Of a stretch of 10,540 bases of DNA, positions 1,047-9,753 are shown piece after piece. Every line of letters begins with the position of its first letter. Position 1 is the stretch's first letter. Made by a program: the position numbers and the translations under genes. This stretch comes from Planctomycetota bacterium (GTDB taxonomy: Bacteria; Planctomycetota; Phycisphaerae; UBA1845; UTPLA1). A model generated the notes under the pieces. The model saw only the letters and a list, made by a program, of their open reading frames with translations. It did not search any database and was not told where the DNA came from. The DNA is taken from positions 1-10,540 of the forward strand of contig JAPULF010000249.1 in assembly GCA_027295245.1 (NCBI GenBank), read 5' to 3'.

Positions 1047-1055
1047 ATTATAGCA
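1047..1055 (-). promoter_or_regulatory. Extended -10 promoter (TGCTATAAT) for the radical SAM gene
   Basis: The minus strand reads TGC followed by a perfect TATAAT, which is the TGnTATAAT extended -10 form. The position 17 bp upstream holds CCGGTG, not a -35 box, and it falls inside the hairpin of repeat copy A. An extended -10 element can work without a good -35. The predicted start is near 1040, giving a leader of about 50 nt before TTG 986. The TGC also forms part of the terminal GCAT/ATGC inverted end of the repeat. Confidence 0.6.
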
Positions 1056-1109
1056 TGAAGACTCTGTTTCACCGGTTGAAAACCGGTGCCACAGTGGCTC
1101 TCGAGATGC
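1053..1109 (-). repeat. Intergenic imperfect palindromic repeat, copy A
   Basis: This copy begins about 10 bases past the stop of the metal ATPase. On the plus strand it has a perfect 8-bp stem CACCGGTT / AACCGGTG (1070-1077 and 1081-1088) with a 3-base loop GAA. A second small palindrome, GCCAC-A-GTGGC, lies at 1088-1098. The outer ends are GCAT / ATGC inverted. It shares with copies B and C the ordered blocks CTCGAGA (or CTCAAAA), CAC-x-GG, GTTTYC and GAAA, all in the same orientation. It is the most diverged copy at its right arm. It may also act as a 3' stem after the ATPase gene, but it has no T-tract. Confidence 0.7.
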
Positions 1110-1118
1110 AGTGCCCCC

Positions 1119-3164
1119 CTACGCGGTGGCAGGCACGGCCGCCGGGGCGGGGCTTCGATCTTCCGCGATCACCTGTTCGTGTGTCGCCTTCTCCTCGCCG
1201 AATCGGACCAGGCGGGCGGAGTTGAACACCACCACGAAGCTCGACGCCGTGTGGAGAATCGCCGCCACGATCGGGGGAACGATGCTGAAAGCCCCCAACG
1301 CCATGACGGTGATGACGAACAGCACCCCGAAGACCAGGTTCTGGACGACGACGCGGCGCGTCGCCCGGCTCAGGCGAATCAGGAACGGGAGCCGCGTGAG
1401 GTCGTTGTTCATCAGGGCAATCGACGCGGAATTGATGGCCACATCGCTGCCGGCGGCGCCCATGGCGACGCCGAGGTCACCGGCGGCAAGCGCCGGGGCA
1501 TCGTTCACACCGTCGCCCACCACCAAGACACGATGGCCCTGTTTTCGCATCTGTTCCACGAGTTCGAGTTTTTCATGCGGCAGACAATCGGCCCTGAATT
1601 CGGTGCAGGCCATCTCGGCGGCCACGCGTTGGGCCACCGCATGGCGGTCGCCGGTCAACATGGCCAGGCGACGTATCCCGCAGTCGCGCAGTTCCTGAAC
1701 GGCCTGTCGTGCCGCCGGCCGGGTGCGGTCTTCCAAGGCCACCATTCCGAGCAGTTGTTTTCCACGGGAGACGAACAATTGACTCATGCCTTCAGTGCGG
1801 GCCTGGGCTTCATCCAGCGACGACAGGTCAACACCGTTGTCCGACAGAAAGGCGGCCCGACCGACGAGGACTTCGTCGCCGTCAATCTCAGCGATCACGC
1901 CTTTTCCGGGGACTTCCTTGAATTTGTCCGGCCGGGTGAGCCGAAGGTTGGCTTCGGCGGCCACCTTGACCAGGGCCCGCGCCGCCGGATGATTGCTGGA
2001 CTGCTCCGCCGAGGCAGCGAGGCGCAGCAGGCGTTCCCCTTCGGCGTCCTTGACCGGAATCAACCGCGACACCGACAACTCGCCGGTCGTCAGGGTGCCG
2101 GTCTTGTCGAAAACGACGGCCGTCAATCGGCCGGCGCTTTCGAGATGGCCGACATCCTTGATGAGGATTCCCAGACGGGCCGCGCAACTCAAGCCCGCAA
2201 CCATGGCGGTCGGCGTCGCCATGATAAGGGCGCAAGGGCAACTCGCGACGAGCATGGTGATGGCCCGATGGGCGCCGTTGTCCTCGCGATTGAAGAAGAA
2301 GACGAGCATCGACAGGATCAGGATCACCGGCGTGTACCAAACGACGTAGCGATCGATCAACCGCATGATGGGAATGCGGGTCTGCTCGGCCTGGAGAATC
2401 AGATTCTGCACGCGTCCGAGGGTCGTATCGGCGCCGACCTTGGTCACTTCGACTTCGAGTGCGCCGGTCAGATTGGTGGTTCCGCTGAAGACGGTGTCTT
2501 CGGGTCGCTTGTCGACGGGCAGGGACTCGCCGGTGATGTTGGCCTGGTCCACGGTCGATTCGCCGGAGACGACCTTGCCGTCCGCCGGGATGTTTTCGCC
2601 GGGACGGATCCGCACATGCTGACCCTTCTTTAGAGACGTGGCCTGGACCTCTTGTTCTTCACCCTCGATGACCACGCGAGCCGTTTTGGGCGTGAGCTTG
2701 ATCAGCTCTTCGATGCTGGCCCGGGCGCCGATGGCCGTTCGGGTTTCGATCAGCTCCGATAGCAACAGGAAGAATGCAATCACCCCGGCCACCTGGTAAG
2801 CCCCGATGGCGAAGGCCGCCAGGATTGCCAGGGCGACCAACTCGTCCATGTGCATGTGACCGGCGATGAGGTTCTTGAGGGCATGCCCGATGATCAGGGC
2901 GCCCAACATGAAGGCCCCGATCCCGGCGACCAGGTCCATTTGAAATCGCCAGACCAGTTCGCCCGACAAATCCACGGGGCTGAAAATCCTCACCCAAAAA
3001 CTGGTGAGGACGAGCATGCCGCCGGCGAGTGTCCAATAAAGCCAAAGTTTCACGGACCGGGCCGCTTGGCCGGATTCGGGATGATGATGGCCGTGGTGGT
3101 GTTGATGTTCAGCCGAATGATGGGCCTCTTCGGCCGCCTTAACGCCCACAACGCGATGTGCCAT
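1119..3164 (-). CDS. P1B-type heavy-metal translocating ATPase with His-rich N-terminus
   Basis: An inner-membrane pump that uses ATP to move a soft or transition metal cation out of the cytosol; 681 residues. Visible landmarks are a His-rich tail (residues 15-28: HHSAEHQHHHGHHH), membrane segments around 40-60, 75-97, 107-137 and 275-291, the actuator TGES (211-214), the metal-site CPC in SCPCALIMATPTA (309-311), the phosphorylation DKTGT (353-357, Asp353), the P1B nucleotide-domain HP (392-393), TGD (504-506) and GDGVNDAP (550-557), then two terminal segments with LHTASS (637-642). There is no N-terminal HMA (GMxCxxC) domain; the His tail stands in its place. CPC fits Cu(I) or Zn/Cd/Pb pumps. 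The HTASS segment is not a clean match to the Cu (MxxSS), Zn (Asp) or Co (HEGGT) signatures, so I leave the metal open, leaning to a divalent cation. The ATG at 3164 has AGAGG nine bases upstream. A single-gene unit with its own promoter is likely. Confidence 0.95.
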   Translation of the reverse strand: MAHRVVGVKAAEEAHHSAEHQHHHGHHHPESGQAARSVKLWLYWTLAGGMLVLTSFWVRIFSPVDLSGELVWRFQMDLVAGIGAFMLGALIIGHALKNLIAGHMHMDELVALAILAAFAIGAYQVAGVIAFFLLLSELIETRTAIGARASIEELIKLTPKTARVVIEGEEQEVQATSLKKGQHVRIRPGENIPADGKVVSGESTVDQANITGESLPVDKRPEDTVFSGTTNLTGALEVEVTKVGADTTLGRVQNLILQAEQTRIPIMRLIDRYVVWYTPVILILSMLVFFFNREDNGAHRAITMLVASCPCALIMATPTAMVAGLSCAARLGILIKDVGHLESAGRLTAVVFDKTGTLTTGELSVSRLIPVKDAEGERLLRLAASAEQSSNHPAARALVKVAAEANLRLTRPDKFKEVPGKGVIAEIDGDEVLVGRAAFLSDNGVDLSSLDEAQARTEGMSQLFVSRGKQLLGMVALEDRTRPAARQAVQELRDCGIRRLAMLTGDRHAVAQRVAAEMACTEFRADCLPHEKLELVEQMRKQGHRVLVVGDGVNDAPALAAGDLGVAMGAAGSDVAINSASIALMNNDLTRLPFLIRLSRATRRVVVQNLVFGVLFVITVMALGAFSIVPPIVAAILHTASSFVVVFNSARLVRFGEEKATHEQVIAEDRSPAPAAVPATA

Positions 3165-3254
3165 AAAACCGTGCCTCTAAACGGGGGATCGTTGCACGAC
3201 GGTCTACGATTCGAGCCCGCCTCAGGTTCGCCCCGGGACCCGAAAAGATGCCGA

Positions 3255-3283
3255 ATCATACCGAGCCCCCCCGTCGTTGCCAA
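3255..3283 (-). promoter_or_regulatory. Sigma-70-type promoter of the metal ATPase gene
   Basis: The minus strand has TTGGCA (3278-3283), a 17-bp spacer with a run of seven G, and TATGAT (3255-3260). The predicted start is near 3248, leaving about 84 nt of leader before the ATG at 3164. The spacer is the normal 17 bp, not the 19-20 bp of MerR-family (CueR/ZntR) promoters. I see no clear metal-regulator operator and no regulator gene beside it. Confidence 0.6.
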
Positions 3284-3453
3284 GTGCGATCGGGACGGGC
3301 GGCCTGTGGTTCTTGCAAGACACGAATACACACCGGCAGGACGCCGATGCTCCCCTATAGACGACACTCTTTCCGAAACTTCACGAGCGCCGAGAACCAT
3401 GTCGGGTGACACAGGGGCAACGGCTGCGAACGGGGCGGCGCTCGAGATAGCGG

Positions 3454-3486
3454 AAAAAGGGCTCGAGGAGGTTCCGGTCCCTTCTT
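3454..3486 (-). terminator. Weak terminator-like hairpin after rho
   Basis: Eleven bases past the rho stop, the minus strand has AAGAAGGG pairing with CCCTTTTT (one G.T wobble) across a 17-base loop. The T-run is part of the stem and is followed by CCGC, so this is not a classic intrinsic terminator. An overlapping CTCGAG...CTCGAG pair (3441-3446 and 3462-3467) offers a competing fold. Confidence 0.3.
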
Positions 3487-3496
3487 GCCACGCCTG

Positions 3497-5038
<1,542 letters not shown>

Positions 5039-5045
5039 GGGTGGA

Positions 5046-5051
5046 ACCTCC
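5046..5051 (-). promoter_or_regulatory. Strong Shine-Dalgarno site of rho
   Basis: The minus strand has GGAGGT followed by seven bases and ATG at 5038. It sets the rho start and excludes the upstream ATG at 5053, whose own G is the first base of this motif. Confidence 0.8.
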
Positions 5052-5162
5052 ATTGTCTATTTTCGTTGGACCGTTTGTCATGTTGCTGTTCAGTGGTTTC
5101 CTACCACGCGTATGCAGGTATGCGAGTGATACCGGGGGTGCGACGATGTTTCACGCAATCCG

Positions 5163-5184
5163 GCCGGCGCGACCTCGCGCGGGC
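5163..5184 (-). terminator. GC-rich hairpin just past coaE (no T-tract)
   Basis: Eight bases beyond the coaE stop, the sequence can fold as GCC-x-GCGCG, a 4-base loop ACCT (plus strand) and CGCGC-x-GGC, with one mismatch. No T-run follows, so it is not an intrinsic terminator. It could protect the coaE 3' end, pause polymerase, or be part of the rho leader. The rest of 5039-5191 shows no clear promoter: TTGCGT and TATCAC are present, but 21 bp apart. Confidence 0.35.
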
Positions 5185-5191
5185 ATGTCGG

Positions 5192-5902
5192 TCAGACGGT
5201 GCATGACTTCGATACGATCTGGGTGAAGACTTCCTTTACTCTGTCGCGCAAGGCATCCAGACTTGAATTGTTAACACATATATAATCGGCCCTGGCGCGT
5301 TTCATGTCCAGTGGTTGCTGGGATTTTTCCCGGCGGGAAAGTTCTTCCTCGGACCATTGACGGTCTTTTTCGGACCTTTGCTTACGCACCGCTTCGTCCG
5401 CCTCGACGAATACGACCGCTTCGCATAAAAGGTCCAGATCGACCTCATATAACAACGGAGAATCCAAAACGATCATCCTGATGTCGGCCCGTGCCTCGAA
5501 TTCCGCTATCAAATCGGATCGCCGCACGGCAATCCTGGGGTGAAGCAGCGATTCTAGGCGATGTCGTTGCGATGGATCGCCAAAGACAATCGACGCCACC
5601 TTCTGTCGATTGATGGATCCACCCGCTTCCAGTACGCCGGAGCCCCACCAACGCACCAACGCGTCTTTGATCTCCTGCGTGTCGAGTTCCTGCCGGCTCA
5701 ATACATCCGAGTCGATGACACCGGCACCCAGCTCGGCCAGAATCTTTGCGACGGCGCTCTTGCCGGCCCCTACACCACCCGACAACCCAACCGTAGGCTT
5801 TCTAAAGCGTGCTTTTGTCTCTCGCTGCTCCGTCAGCGCTTCTCCTGAATCGCGATTATCGTGGGTCGGACGTTTCCGAGTCCGTAAGACTTCGCTCGGC
5901 AA
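5192..5902 (-). CDS. coaE: Dephospho-CoA kinase
   Basis: Cytosolic enzyme that phosphorylates the 3'-hydroxyl of dephospho-CoA with ATP, the last step of coenzyme A synthesis. It has 236 residues, against about 200 in the family. The P-loop is GGVGAGKS (42-49), followed by DSD (64-66), LLHP (119-122), DSPLLYE (147-153) and the lid/CoA region ending RREKSQQPLDMKRARADY (190-207), all in family order. The first 36 residues before KPTVGLSGG are extra, charged and not part of the fold. The first possible start is TTG at 5902, with AGGGG nine bases upstream; no ATG or GTG lies between it and the P-loop, so either the extension is real or a non-standard start is used. It stands between dtd, behind repeat B and a promoter, and rho, which it may precede in one transcript. 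Confidence 0.96.
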   Translation of the reverse strand: MPSEVLRTRKRPTHDNRDSGEALTEQRETKARFRKPTVGLSGGVGAGKSAVAKILAELGAGVIDSDVLSRQELDTQEIKDALVRWWGSGVLEAGGSINRQKVASIVFGDPSQRHRLESLLHPRIAVRRSDLIAEFEARADIRMIVLDSPLLYEVDLDLLCEAVVFVEADEAVRKQRSEKDRQWSEEELSRREKSQQPLDMKRARADYICVNNSSLDALRDRVKEVFTQIVSKSCTV

Positions 5903-6030
5903 CCTCGAGATCCCCTGATAAGCGAGGCTGTCAACCGAGATTCCGCGGAGATGATACCCGAGGGTACCGACGGCCCGGGATGGACTCTCTTCGGCTGAGC
6001 CTAGTTCGCCCCATCTGCCGCAGGTGCCGT

Positions 6031-6059
6031 ATTATAACCCGGCGGTCTTGCTGTGTCAC
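6031..6059 (-). promoter_or_regulatory. Sigma-70-type promoter upstream of coaE
   Basis: The minus strand reads GTGACA (6054-6059), a 17-bp spacer, then a perfect TATAAT (6031-6036). Predicted start near 6024. This is the best promoter in the window. The leader to coaE TTG 5902 is about 120 nt and contains short pairable segments (GATGG/CCATC, GGC-TCA-GCC, a GGTACCC...GGGTATC palindrome), but I recognise no riboswitch. Confidence 0.7.
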
Positions 6060-6098
6060 GTCAATTTTTGGGTTCGGGCCGCCTCTTTTTCTCAACCA

Positions 6099-6167
6099 TT
6101 AGGAACGGTCTCAAAAGCGGTTTTCCACAGGCTGGAAACCGGTGCCCTAGTGCCTTTTGAGATCGTC
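6099..6167 (-). repeat. Intergenic imperfect palindromic repeat, copy B
   Basis: Starts about 20 bases past the dtd stop. Perfect outer arms TCTCAAAAG (6109-6117) and CTTTTGAGA (6154-6162) flank an imperfect inner hairpin (CACAGG...ACCGGTG on the plus strand, 6126-6144). On the minus strand GGTTTCCA can also pair with TGGAAAACC (one bulged A) as an alternative hairpin. Its last 30 bases in minus orientation, from GTGGAAAAC to GTTCCTAA, match copy C with three differences. Confidence 0.75.
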
Positions 6168-6187
6168 TGCGTGCGGCAACGCCAGCC

Positions 6188-6637
6188 CTACGCGTCCTCC
6201 CTGGAATCTATTACGAGATTGATCGGGCCGTCATTCACGGCCGTGACGAACATTTTTTCGCCGAACCTCCCCGTTTGGACCCCGACCCCCTCCGCTCGGA
6301 TTCTGTTTGCCAGTTGCTCGTAGAGTTCCTCGGCGATTTCGGGATCCGCCGCCCGGTCGAACCCGGGACGGCGACCGCGATTCGTCGAGGCGACAAGCGT
6401 GAAATTGCTGACCAGTAGCACGGCCCCGGCGGCTTGCACGACGTCGAGATTCATTTTTCCCGACGCGTCAGGGAATATCCTGATATGCCTAATCTTGTTT
6501 CCGACGTAATCGACATCCCGGGATTCATCTCCCTTGGCCACGCCAACGTAAACCAACAGGCCGATTTCGATGCTGCCGACCGATTCATGGTCGACGGTAA
6601 CCGCAGCCTCGCGAACGCGTTGCACAAGGGCGAGCAT
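6188..6637 (-). CDS. dtd: D-aminoacyl-tRNA deacylase
   Basis: Cytosolic homodimeric proofreading enzyme that hydrolyses D-amino acids (and glycine mischarged on tRNA-Ala) from tRNA. It has 149 residues, the normal family size. Recognisable stretches are ALVQRVREAAVTVD (3-16), GLLVYVGV (26-33), KIRHIRIFPD (48-57), GKMN (60-63), GRRPGF (88-93) and TGRFGEKM (122-129). Two active-site signatures are altered: SQFTL is SNFTL (77-81), and the Gly-cisPro motif NxGPxT reads NDGPIN (135-140), keeping the Gly-Pro but losing the Thr. The ATG at 6637 follows the TGA of the WYL regulator (6641-6639) after a single T, and no good ribosome site is visible, so translation is probably coupled. An upstream in-frame start at 6745 would lie inside the regulator and add residues foreign to the family. 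Confidence 0.95.
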   Translation of the reverse strand: MLALVQRVREAAVTVDHESVGSIEIGLLVYVGVAKGDESRDVDYVGNKIRHIRIFPDASGKMNLDVVQAAGAVLLVSNFTLVASTNRGRRPGFDRAADPEIAEELYEQLANRIRAEGVGVQTGRFGEKMFVTAVNDGPINLVIDSREDA

Positions 6638-6638
6638 A

Positions 6639-7631
6639 TCAGGCCGTATCCGCCCGAGGCTTGGACGCCGCCAACGCCACCATTCGCCCGGCCTTGTCGA
6701 GAATACGCCGGCGAAGTTCAGGCGGTTCGAGCACTTCGACTTCATCGCCGTAGCCGAGGATCCACCAGGTGATTTCGCCGAGACCGTCCACTTCGGCGTT
6801 GAAAATGAGCCGGCCGTCGTCGAGCCGCGTGGTCGTCTGGCTCTTATGCCAAACCACTTCCTCGAGGTTCGAAGCGACTCTTGCCGAGAAACGCAACTTC
6901 ACGCGGTACAGGGTCCCTTCAGGAATCATGAGCCATGCGGCGCCGAAATGCGTTTCCTCGGTGAAATCGATCGGTGGCGGTCGACGCGTTCGGCCGGCGG
7001 TCTCGACTTTCAGAAAGCGGTCGATCTTGTACGTCCGCGCTTCACCGTGCCGCTGATCGTTGGCGATGAGGTACCAACCGCGTGTCATGAAGACCAGTCT
7101 CCACGGGTCCAGCAGAAGGTCAAGCTCGCGGCCGTCGGTCAAGGAATCGTAGCGGACCTCGAGTTGCTGTTTTTCGACGAGTGCGTGAAGAATCGTATCA
7201 AAGACGCTTGCGGCGGCCGAAGCGCTCGAACACGGCGGCCATCGAACCGAGACGGACTCGAGGGCCCGAACGCAATACTTTCGCACGGCCGCCGGCAGAT
7301 TGCTTTCAATCTTCAGGCCGGCGTTCAGTGCGTGTCGAAAGGCGGGGTGAATCTGCCGGGAGAGGAACTTCCGCGTCATCAATAAGAGCGCCAGAGACTC
7401 GTCGAGATTCAGCTGAAGTGGCGGCAGAAAGAACGAATCCGCGATCGAATAAGACTGTAGACCACGGTCGAATCGATAGGGGACATCGGCCTCGTGCAGC
7501 ATATTCAGATCCCGAAAGAGCGTTCGGCGCGAAACCGCAAGCTCCTTTGCCAGGGCCTCGGCATCAAATTGGCGTCCGGATTGCAGAATCGTGATCAGCT
7601 TGAGAAGTCGATAAACGCGACTGATGTTCAT
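6639..7631 (-). CDS. WYL-domain transcriptional regulator (YafY/DeoR-like)
   Basis: A DNA-binding regulator of 330 residues. The N-terminal winged helix-turn-helix covers about residues 3-62 (RVYRLLKLITILQSGR, then LAKELAVSRRTLFRDLNML). The WYL ligand-sensing domain covers about 140-210, with LLLDPWRLVFMTRGWYLIA at its core (172-190) and the basic TYKIDRFLKVE after it. A C-terminal WCX extension follows (about 242-310). WYL domains are thought to bind nucleic-acid or nucleotide ligands; the target here is unknown. The ATG at 7631 lies one residue before the start of the family fold region, so it is well supported although the upstream gene overlaps it by 68 bases. No Shine-Dalgarno is visible, which suggests coupling to that gene. 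It is followed at once by dtd. Confidence 0.92.
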   Translation of the reverse strand: MNISRVYRLLKLITILQSGRQFDAEALAKELAVSRRTLFRDLNMLHEADVPYRFDRGLQSYSIADSFFLPPLQLNLDESLALLLMTRKFLSRQIHPAFRHALNAGLKIESNLPAAVRKYCVRALESVSVRWPPCSSASAAASVFDTILHALVEKQQLEVRYDSLTDGRELDLLLDPWRLVFMTRGWYLIANDQRHGEARTYKIDRFLKVETAGRTRRPPPIDFTEETHFGAAWLMIPEGTLYRVKLRFSARVASNLEEVVWHKSQTTTRLDDGRLIFNAEVDGLGEITWWILGYGDEVEVLEPPELRRRILDKAGRMVALAASKPRADTA

Positions 7632-9609
7632 GGCGAACCGCGCAGCAGTATTGACCCCGCGATTCGTGGCTCACAGTGCTCCCCTGACCGGACACTGCAA
7701 AGATATTACTGTCCACATAGGTTCGGTACAAGCTCGCCAAGGACCCCAGCAAAAGCGCCCCAGCGAGCGCCAGAAACGCCTTGCGCCCTTCTCGGCTGGC
7801 CGCCAATCCGTAAACCGCCCCCAGTACGGCTAGCGTCAAAGGCCGCAGCCACTCCGCCGGTGGACGCCCCGGTGGGAAAAAAATCGAGAGGCCGGAAGGA
7901 AGCCGCTCGGATGGCACCACCAACCAGAGCGAGTAGGCCGGCAAGACAAGCAGTGCCAGGAGCCAGAGGGGCGCCGCAAAGCCGCGCCAGGCACCGTCGC
8001 GAGCCGTCTCCGCCAGAGCCAGGATGGGCAGGGCGCTCACGGCCAGCACGACCGCCAGGTGTTGCGTCAGCCATCCCCTTTCGGGTGACGACGGGGAGCG
8101 GATAAACGCAAAAAACGTGCAGGCAACAACGAAGGCGATCGCAAGACTGGCGTAAGCCGCGGACTCCGTGCGCCGGGCGACCCGCGCCGTCACGGCGGCG
8201 AGAAACAGCAAGGCCGCAACGCCGGCAACAACGCGCCCGGCGGTATTGTCGGGATCCACCGATGCCACACTCTTTGGCCACAGCGCCATTCGAAAAGCGA
8301 CAAGAACCGCGAGGGCCGTTATGAGAAATGTCGCAAGTCGCACCGATGGGATCATCCGGCCCGCGGTTGTCCACGGTGTTCCGTCGGCGGCGAGTTGTTG
8401 CTCCCAAAAACGGGGCAGCCAGTGCCAAAGAGCCAAGGCCGCGCCGAGGCCGAACAATGCCGCGTTGAAGAGAGCGGGAATTCGAGTGACGTACTCGCGG
8501 GCATAAGGAACCGCGGGATCGGCCGCGACATCGAAGGTCAGCCATGCCGCCAGCGTTATGAAGAGAGTCACCATCGCCGCCGTTAGCAACGCGATGCCCA
8601 GTTCGGCGGTAAGCATGCTCCAACGACGATACGCCAAAAAGAGGCAAGTCGTCCCGGACGCCGCCAATGCCACGAACCCGGCCGAGCTGGGAACGGGCCT
8701 TGCCCCGACGGGGCTCACGACGTGATACACCCCCAGAATGAGAACGACACCCGCGATGACGGCTTCAGACTGTACAAACGCCGGCCATTTCGAATATGGG
8801 GCGATCAGATCGTCGAGACGGTCGGGCCAGGCATTTGCGACCCGCCGCCTATAGGGGAACTCCTGCAGGATGGCCGCCAGTAGCAGCAGCGTCGCCAGAC
8901 CGATTTGCAAGTGTAGAGTCCATGACCACCAATCCGGTAGAAAATCGGGCATGACCGATCTGTCGAGCGCCCGCTCGGCGCCGAGACCCGCCGGAATCAA
9001 CAGGCTCGTCCAACACACGAATACTGCCGAGAGCCCCAGCAAAATGACCGGTTGCTCCGGTCGCCGACCCGCAAGCGTCCAAAGTCCGGTTGCGGCTAGC
9101 AGGGCCGCAATGTCCCACAGCCCGCCCCCGGCCAGTCGTTGAAACACCTGGTCGGGATTCAACAAGCGATCCCACACTTCGAAGATGAGAAAGTAGGCGA
9201 CGAGAACAACCGTTGCGATGCCCGTGACCAGGGACCATGCCAGGAACGTGGCGGAGGATCGTGCGCCAGAGCCCGCCTCGCGGCGATCGCCGCCGATGCC
9301 CGCGGCCCAGCCGAAAAGGGCCCACAAGACGCACACCCCCGCGGAGATGTGTGACGCGAGAAACGCCCGATTTTCCGCGGTGCTGGCATGGGGCCAATTG
9401 TGTTTGAATGCCGTCACCGAGACGCCGACCGTGGTCGCCGCGACGAACAGTGACACCCCCAGTCCGGCGGGCAGCTTGCGACGAAGCAGATAGAAGAGAA
9501 TGCCGACGGCGAAGACGGCAATTGCGAATACCTCGTCCCCGAACGGCCCCACAGCGGCAGGCGGCGTCCGTGCCGCGAACTCGACTACGGATTGATGCAT
9601 CGCGGCCAT
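7564..9609 (-). CDS. Unrecognised polytopic membrane protein (about 18 membrane segments)
   Basis: I do not recognise a family. From ATG 9609 it has 681 residues; about 18 hydrophobic stretches of 17-25 residues are separated by short charged loops, the first near 27-42 (FAIAVFAVGILFYLL) and the last ending near 631 (LLGSLASLYRTY). It carries scattered intramembrane His and Trp (for example LASHISAGVCVLWALFGW and DWWSWTLHLQIG), but I find no CcmF/CcsA tryptophan-rich heme motif, no transporter signature and no soluble domain. Start: the frame stays open to 9732, but that upstream part is encoded by repeat copy C and reads as charged, non-conserved sequence. ATG 9609, or ATG 9600 with AGGA nine bases upstream, is preferred. 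The last roughly 49 residues after the final segment are hydrophilic and overlap the WYL gene, so the C-terminus may be affected by a frameshift. Confidence 0.75.
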   Translation of the reverse strand: MAAMHQSVVEFAARTPPAAVGPFGDEVFAIAVFAVGILFYLLRRKLPAGLGVSLFVAATTVGVSVTAFKHNWPHASTAENRAFLASHISAGVCVLWALFGWAAGIGGDRREAGSGARSSATFLAWSLVTGIATVVLVAYFLIFEVWDRLLNPDQVFQRLAGGGLWDIAALLAATGLWTLAGRRPEQPVILLGLSAVFVCWTSLLIPAGLGAERALDRSVMPDFLPDWWSWTLHLQIGLATLLLLAAILQEFPYRRRVANAWPDRLDDLIAPYSKWPAFVQSEAVIAGVVLILGVYHVVSPVGARPVPSSAGFVALAASGTTCLFLAYRRWSMLTAELGIALLTAAMVTLFITLAAWLTFDVAADPAVPYAREYVTRIPALFNAALFGLGAALALWHWLPRFWEQQLAADGTPWTTAGRMIPSVRLATFLITALAVLVAFRMALWPKSVASVDPDNTAGRVVAGVAALLFLAAVTARVARRTESAAYASLAIAFVVACTFFAFIRSPSSPERGWLTQHLAVVLAVSALPILALAETARDGAWRGFAAPLWLLALLVLPAYSLWLVVPSERLPSGLSIFFPPGRPPAEWLRPLTLAVLGAVYGLAASREGRKAFLALAGALLLGSLASLYRTYVDSNIFAVSGQGSTVSHESRGQYCCAVRHEHQSRLSTSQADHDSAIRTPI

Positions 9610-9682
9610 TCCTGAATTCGCTCTTCCACTCGTCAATCGCTCCGATTGGCAGCACGATGGATCGGACGATCGGGCAGGGCGT

Positions 9683-9753
9683 TTAGGAACTCTCTCAAAA
9701 GCCGTTTTCCACTGGTCAGAAACCAGTGACACACTCGCTCTCGAGAGAGCGTC
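9683..9753 (-). repeat. Intergenic imperfect palindromic repeat, copy C
   Basis: A perfect 7-bp stem CACTGGT (9710-9716) / ACCAGTG (9722-9728) with a 5-base loop CAGAA is flanked by outer CTCTC (9690-9694) and GAGAG (9743-9747) arms and by a self-palindromic CTCTCGAGAG. Same orientation as copies A and B. The minus-strand end GTGGAAAAC...GTTCCTAA matches copy B with three differences in 30 bases. Confidence 0.75.

Follow-up and report, generated by a model that had tools for sequence, protein, structure and literature searches.

In the text available of PMC6006769, a canonical REP is marked by a GTAG or GTGG tetranucleotide lying 0–2 nt 5′ of the foot of a hairpin, with a stem of 7–20 bp and a loop of 2–5 nt. 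The repeat family described here resembles such GT[AG]G REPs, as far as the excerpts of PMC6006769 and PMC3733652 go, in that GTGG stands directly before an 8-bp hairpin, many copies are intergenic and often follow genes, and, in relatives, Y1 transposase genes are flanked by REPs of the same type; it departs from them in being embedded in inverted arms, and in that no flanking RayT gene was found in its own genome. The available part of PMC3733652 also describes REP dimers nested in palindromes – GTAG-15 of A. variabilis and CGTC-1 of H. neapolitanus – which, like our family, set a REP unit within a longer palindrome; unlike these dimers, our copies hold a single core, and their frame has target duplications in a relative. 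Nested REPs are thus already on record, and the new part is the frame with target duplications around a REP.

Bacterial MITEs provide the second point of comparison: inverted ends, a lack of coding capacity and 3-bp TNA duplications (the last in the relative G040) are common to both, whereas here no parent IS was found, no duplication was seen in the window's own genome, and a REP is carried. Target duplication is expected of DDE transposases, not of HUH transposition. REPINs are matched by the versions of the family in two relatives, G031 and G024, each with two inverted cores; copies in the window's own genome have one.

The window – the whole stretch of 10,540 nt analysed – is contig C167 of an assembly, G000, of 3.13 Mb in 653 contigs and 75.5% complete, which was compared with relatives within a set of 41 genomes, its own included. 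Eight genes lie in the window, all on the minus strand (Table 1). An 84% identical homologue of the WYL-domain regulator lies on a contig of 10,248 bases, from a possible close relative, and a 63% identical one carries the name Phycisphaerae. The bacterium itself is probably a planctomycete of the Phycisphaerae. The three repeat copies (A, B and C) pointed out by an initial annotation are present, and coincide with the first two direct-repeat families of a repeat finder, one of 41 nt, in which B and C are 78% and 76% identical to A, and one of 64 nt, in which B and C are 75% identical to each other. Their distances past the upstream stop codon (10, 23 and 107 nt, respectively) agree with that account, as does the terminal sequence common to B and C, TTAGGAAC, at 6099 and 9683. 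Copy A, which has a degenerate low-coordinate arm and no GTTCC end, is the weakest of the three and the only one with an exact GTGG tag, and copy C, taken as minus-strand RNA, has a fold z-score of −5.14.

Table 1. Coordinates of genes and repeat features in the window, and loci of transposases embedded in host genes of the 41-genome set.
Feature	Position or locus	Strand	Remarks
AmmeMemoRadiSam radical-SAM enzyme		minus	window gene
Heavy-metal P-type ATPase		minus	window gene
Rho		minus	window gene
CoaE		minus	window gene
D-aminoacyl-tRNA deacylase		minus	window gene
WYL-domain regulator, protein P0003	6639–7631	minus	window gene
Large membrane-protein-like frame	7564–9732	minus	722 aa from first start; no Pfam or NCBIfam match
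Outer-membrane efflux protein		minus	window gene
Copy A, 58-column block	1051–1108	minus	low-coordinate arm degenerate; R2 58.5 bits, E 5.4e-17; row L019
REP core of copy A	1070–1092	minus	tag GTGG 1089–1092, hairpin 1070–1088; read from sequence
Copy B, block	6107–6164	minus	arms 6107–6118 and 6153–6164; R2 65.1 bits, E 2.1e-19; row L015
REP core of copy B	6126–6148	minus	tag changed to AGGG 6145–6148, hairpin 6126–6144, one mismatched stem pair
Outer end of copy B	6099–6106	minus	GTTCCTAA on minus strand, common to copy C
Copy C, block	9691–9748	minus	best preserved; arms 9691–9702 and 9737–9748; R2 67.3 bits, E 3.3e-20
REP core of copy C	9710–9732	minus	tag changed to GTGT 9729–9732, hairpin 9710–9728; read from sequence
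Outer end of copy C	9683–9690	minus	GTTCCTAA on minus strand
purH	L250, L251, L253, L257, L269		one site, five genomes
Isoleucyl-tRNA-synthetase-like (ileS-like)	L254, L255, L256, L270		four at one site
Isoleucyl-tRNA-synthetase-like (ileS-like)	L252		another site
gcvP	L271, L277		two
RarA-like ATPase	L258		one

The anatomy of the element was read from 24 strong copies (E ≤ 3e-6) in G000, whose consensus is TATCTCGAGAGCCACTGTGGCACTGGTTTCCAACCAGTGGAAAACGGCTCTTGAGATA. On the minus strand the core consensus runs GTGG and then CACTGGTT-TCC-AACCAGTG, forming a stem of 8 bp and a loop of 3 nt; the tag is exact in 15 of the 24 and has one or two changes in the rest. The family thereby has the tag, the stem and loop, and the multicopy, extragenic occurrence of a canonical REP, and its core is very probably one. 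The core is also the better conserved part, with a mean pairwise identity of 76% vs 58% and 52% for the two arms; a base pair is formed in 89.6% of cells at the six outer positions of the core, and in 71.8% at the twelve of the arms, against 35–44% over all pairs in slid controls, so that the arms pair as the terminal inverted repeats of a MITE do. Bare cores without arms occur as well, in G000 (rows L023, L025 and L037) and, as matches of 24–27 nt, in G040. The suggestion that the copies represent an abundant REP-like or small-MITE family is borne out in both halves: the core fits the definition of a REP, and in G040 the arms have the behaviour of MITE ends.

Copy B alone, used as a query before any model was trained, matched nine other places in G000 at E ≤ 10 (best 5.8e-5). 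Seven of the nine were recovered by R2, a covariance model built from ten copies, which missed two weak ones and found untrained copies at E-values down to 1.3e-17 (L018). At E ≤ 10, R2 gives 36 matches in G000, of which 32 also pass E ≤ 0.01 (an opposite-strand duplicate among them); with 150 of 1357 first-look candidates scored, the copy count is a lower bound. The abundance first proposed thus holds as regards a multicopy family, of at least 24 strong copies in G000, but its size is moderate. The copies, with a mean pairwise identity of 64%, are old. They are also largely confined to the spaces between genes: 27 of 29 are wholly intergenic, two overlap a gene end and none lies inside a gene, according to a simple codon-usage caller run on short contigs, which finds all eight genes of the window but places some of their starts differently. 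Neither of the outcomes that would have spoken against the original proposal – three copies only, or copies scattered inside genes – was found, and the placement resembles that published for REPs in the excerpted text of PMC3733652. The upstream neighbour lies on the element's strand for 15 of the 29 copies, on the opposite strand for ten, and is of unknown strand for four.

All three window copies point the same way relative to transcription, as had been observed at the outset, but genome-wide this is only a tendency: the orientation is sense in 10 of 12 co-directional gaps (two-sided P = 0.039), and in seven of nine once the window's three copies are left out (P = 0.18). Together with the 10 of 29 copies that are sense and at most 40 nt past a stop codon, this tendency is what one would expect if the repeat were a functional RNA, that is, a 3′-end hairpin serving as terminator or mRNA stabiliser. 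A covariation score reached by only 4 of 500 shuffles points the same way; the support that it lends to RNA-level conservation, which had been proposed as the thing to examine, is modest, however, because both-sided pair changes (8 vs 7.4) are no more frequent than in shuffles. At the arm pairs, G–T outnumbers A–C by 41 to 24, which would suit selection on the RNA, but because slid controls vary as much, no such selection is claimed here. The 11 terminator-like sites (a hairpin followed by a T-run) predicted in the window all lie off the copies, the window has no Rfam match at the gathering score, and the sense bias is not significant without the window copies. A role as functional RNA is accordingly improbable, and the window repeats have the look of passengers in the genome, not of genes or switches.

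Across the set, R2 matches at E ≤ 0.01 occur in 20 of the 41 genomes, G000 among them; with the stricter filters applied here, the remaining 21 yielded no match. Between 136 and 150 candidates were scored in each genome, so that the counts are minima. The REP type itself, GTGGCACNGG-N7-CCNGTG (hereafter the GTGGCAC type), is found in 29 of the 41, with a maximum of 301 sites in a single genome and 11 in G000, against 0 or 1 per strand for reversed-pattern controls. An arm starting 20–22 nt before the tag (distances counted by hand) is also present in G031 (L062), G024 (L043), G040 (L068) and G018 (L069); by eye, it is close in sequence to our own in G024, whereas G040 and G018 have other arm sequences. 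Tandem arrays of REP cores were seen in G019 (C4:225721-227488), in steps of about 66 nt, and in G003 (L127:893-2259), in steps of 150 nt.

The enzyme that would act on such a core has a candidate in P0001, a RayT-type HUH transposase of the related genome G007, which belongs to the same family. Relatives of P0001 at E < 1e-20 are present in ten of the 41 genomes, where REP number is higher (Mann–Whitney P = 0.0005) and where three or more REP sites are found in 10/10, compared with 15/31 of the others (P = 0.003), although these P values ignore shared ancestry and the cut-off was chosen after seeing the search. At 9 of 13 P0001-type loci, a GTRG hairpin stands in forward orientation within 260 nt to the left and another in reverse orientation within 330 nt to the right, where a random 260-nt stretch holds one in 2.25% of cases per strand; five of the nine (L250, L251, L252, L253 and L269) have the GTGGCACNGG (GTGGCAC) type, and L254, L255, L256 and L257 lack such a pair. 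Among 89 further Y1 loci, spread over 13 genomes, four (L171, L127, L130 and L125) had an R2 match at E ≤ 0.5, and inverted GTGGCAC hairpins stand on both sides of the gene at L171 (G007) and L064 (G019). A scan of genome contigs with P0001 confirmed a single locus, apparently G007's own. RayT presumably acts on the core. In the 75%-complete G000 itself, no match to a P0001-type transposase and no REPtron – a RayT gene between copies of the same REP – was found.

G000 does have two Y1 matches, one intact gene (contig C253) and one fragment (C78), and the family might be moved by the intact gene, its locus then being a REPtron: a full copy of the repeat lies 101 nt upstream of the start, and in NCBIfam the protein matches the REP-associated transposase model alone, at 58.8 bits and so below the cut-off of 80. 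Yet this is one copy on one side, R2 finds none at the 29 loci of relatives from that protein's search, many of the relatives' genes have a GGGGACA-type motif just upstream instead, and genomes with this gene type are no richer in REPs (P = 0.54), all of which makes it very improbable that this gene drives the family. The GGGGACA-type motif resembles the GGGGWSAS repeats that TIR-associated Y1 genes carry in the available part of PMC3733652. Within the clade of the G000 gene, AAAAGGGGACATTCTACTTTTT-like or AAAAGGTGTCAGGAAGAATTT-like motifs, TIR-like and unlike the window family, are often found upstream (L012:2031-2056; L073-L100).

The arms tell a different part of the story, most clearly in G040, where a young version of the family occupies 12 places at 94–100% identity over at least 64 bases. 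Nine two-ended copies in this one genome (L304–L312), with flanks read by eye, form the sample for target duplication: the three bases outside both ends are identical in six of the nine (permutation P = 0.035), 24 of 27 flank letters match (permutation P = 0.008), and the middle base agrees in all nine. These flanks are a 3-bp TNA target duplication, which we take to resemble those of the IS1031 group of the IS5 family, and the arms look like MITE ends. That the arms of our own family are homologous to those of G040 – the sequences differ – and that it used the same DDE chemistry is what we infer.

The window's own genome is less obliging. In the register suggested by the relatives, 0 of 17 copies have exact 3-mers (P = 0.47); 2 letters in that register give P = 0.006 and 4 letters 0.0135, after a scan of 600 registers that turned up nothing beyond chance in G000 (best value 0.0065). 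Old copies or misjudged ends could explain the absence, which nevertheless remains a point against the MITE reading. Nor was an autonomous element with the same ends found in the 75%-complete G000 or in G040, where the element itself served as query. All eight G000 sites of our own arm pattern with at most one mismatch are family copies; with at most two mismatches there are 33 sites vs 23 for the reversed control, the best eight again all family copies. An outlying G040 match to the right end, L334, was considered as a parent IS and set aside, as it sits in a cydAB-like gene pair without a transposase.

Taken as a whole, we favour, at a probability of roughly 55%, a composite in which a REP hairpin is carried inside a MITE, a non-autonomous mobile element. 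The palindromic, non-coding unit of about 70–76 bp would then have two layers: an inner, GTGG-tagged REP hairpin, the kind of site recognised by RayT/TnpA-REP (HUH, Y1) transposases, and an outer pair of terminal inverted repeats moved by a DDE transposase with 3-bp TNA duplications. Such a composite would owe its dispersal chiefly to the MITE, the REP travelling along as passenger; RayT would separately have spread bare REP cores, and old copies would now persist as intergenic hairpins, often just after stop codons.

The chief competitor is a pure REP or REPIN, the whole unit being moved by a RayT-type HUH enzyme only and the arms being nothing but an outer hairpin. The canonical tag and hairpin, the REPIN-like look of the two-hairpin versions in G031 and G024, the way in which REP number tracks RayT, and the lack of target duplication at our own copies would all sit well with it; the target duplications of G040, which HUH transposition would not be expected to leave, and the bare cores that exist without arms in G000 and G040 would not, and we regard it as unlikely.

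A stronger finding than the composite nature of the window family concerns the RayT-type genes themselves. Among the 41 genomes, the 13 best P0001-type genes (E ≤ 4.3e-26) run stop-free into host genes on both sides (Table 1; host names were read from translations, and L256 reaches a contig end), and the next two matches, L272 and L259, do not appear to be embedded. By eye, all 13 retain the HUH histidines and the tyrosine, and the REP hairpins at the borders are translated as linkers, giving peptides such as HRLETGATG or TGFQPV. In a protein collection, the embedded part was matched by 358 of 591 candidates at E ≤ 1e-12; the search admitted proteins of 0.55–1.75 times the length of the 793-aa query and by design excluded short free-standing ones. 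The best 23 of the 120 listed matches all have a PurH domain, and later listed ones have tRNA-synthetase, DUF1156, HAM1, PriA, BirA or other domains. The excerpted text of PMC3733652 records REPs and RPEs within reading frames, and no title among the literature matches listed describes in-frame insertion of such transposases into housekeeping genes.

These guests allow a bolder and rather doubtful extension, in which one element of 75 bases would bring together two transposition chemistries of unrelated kinds: the GTGGCAC hairpin would be the site of in-frame RayT guests (in PurH, tRNA synthetases, GcvP, PriA and others), a DDE-type MITE would have captured it as cargo and strewn it over the intergenic spaces, and the window family would be intergenic debris of an intein-like lifestyle. 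RayT genes lying in frame inside housekeeping enzymes would, in any case, bear on how transposases persist in genomes. As for the composite favoured here, the spread of REPs is still debated, and a REP within a MITE that leaves duplications would imply that REPs can also be dispersed by a second transposase, unrelated to the first. The G040 family is young enough to test such dispersal.
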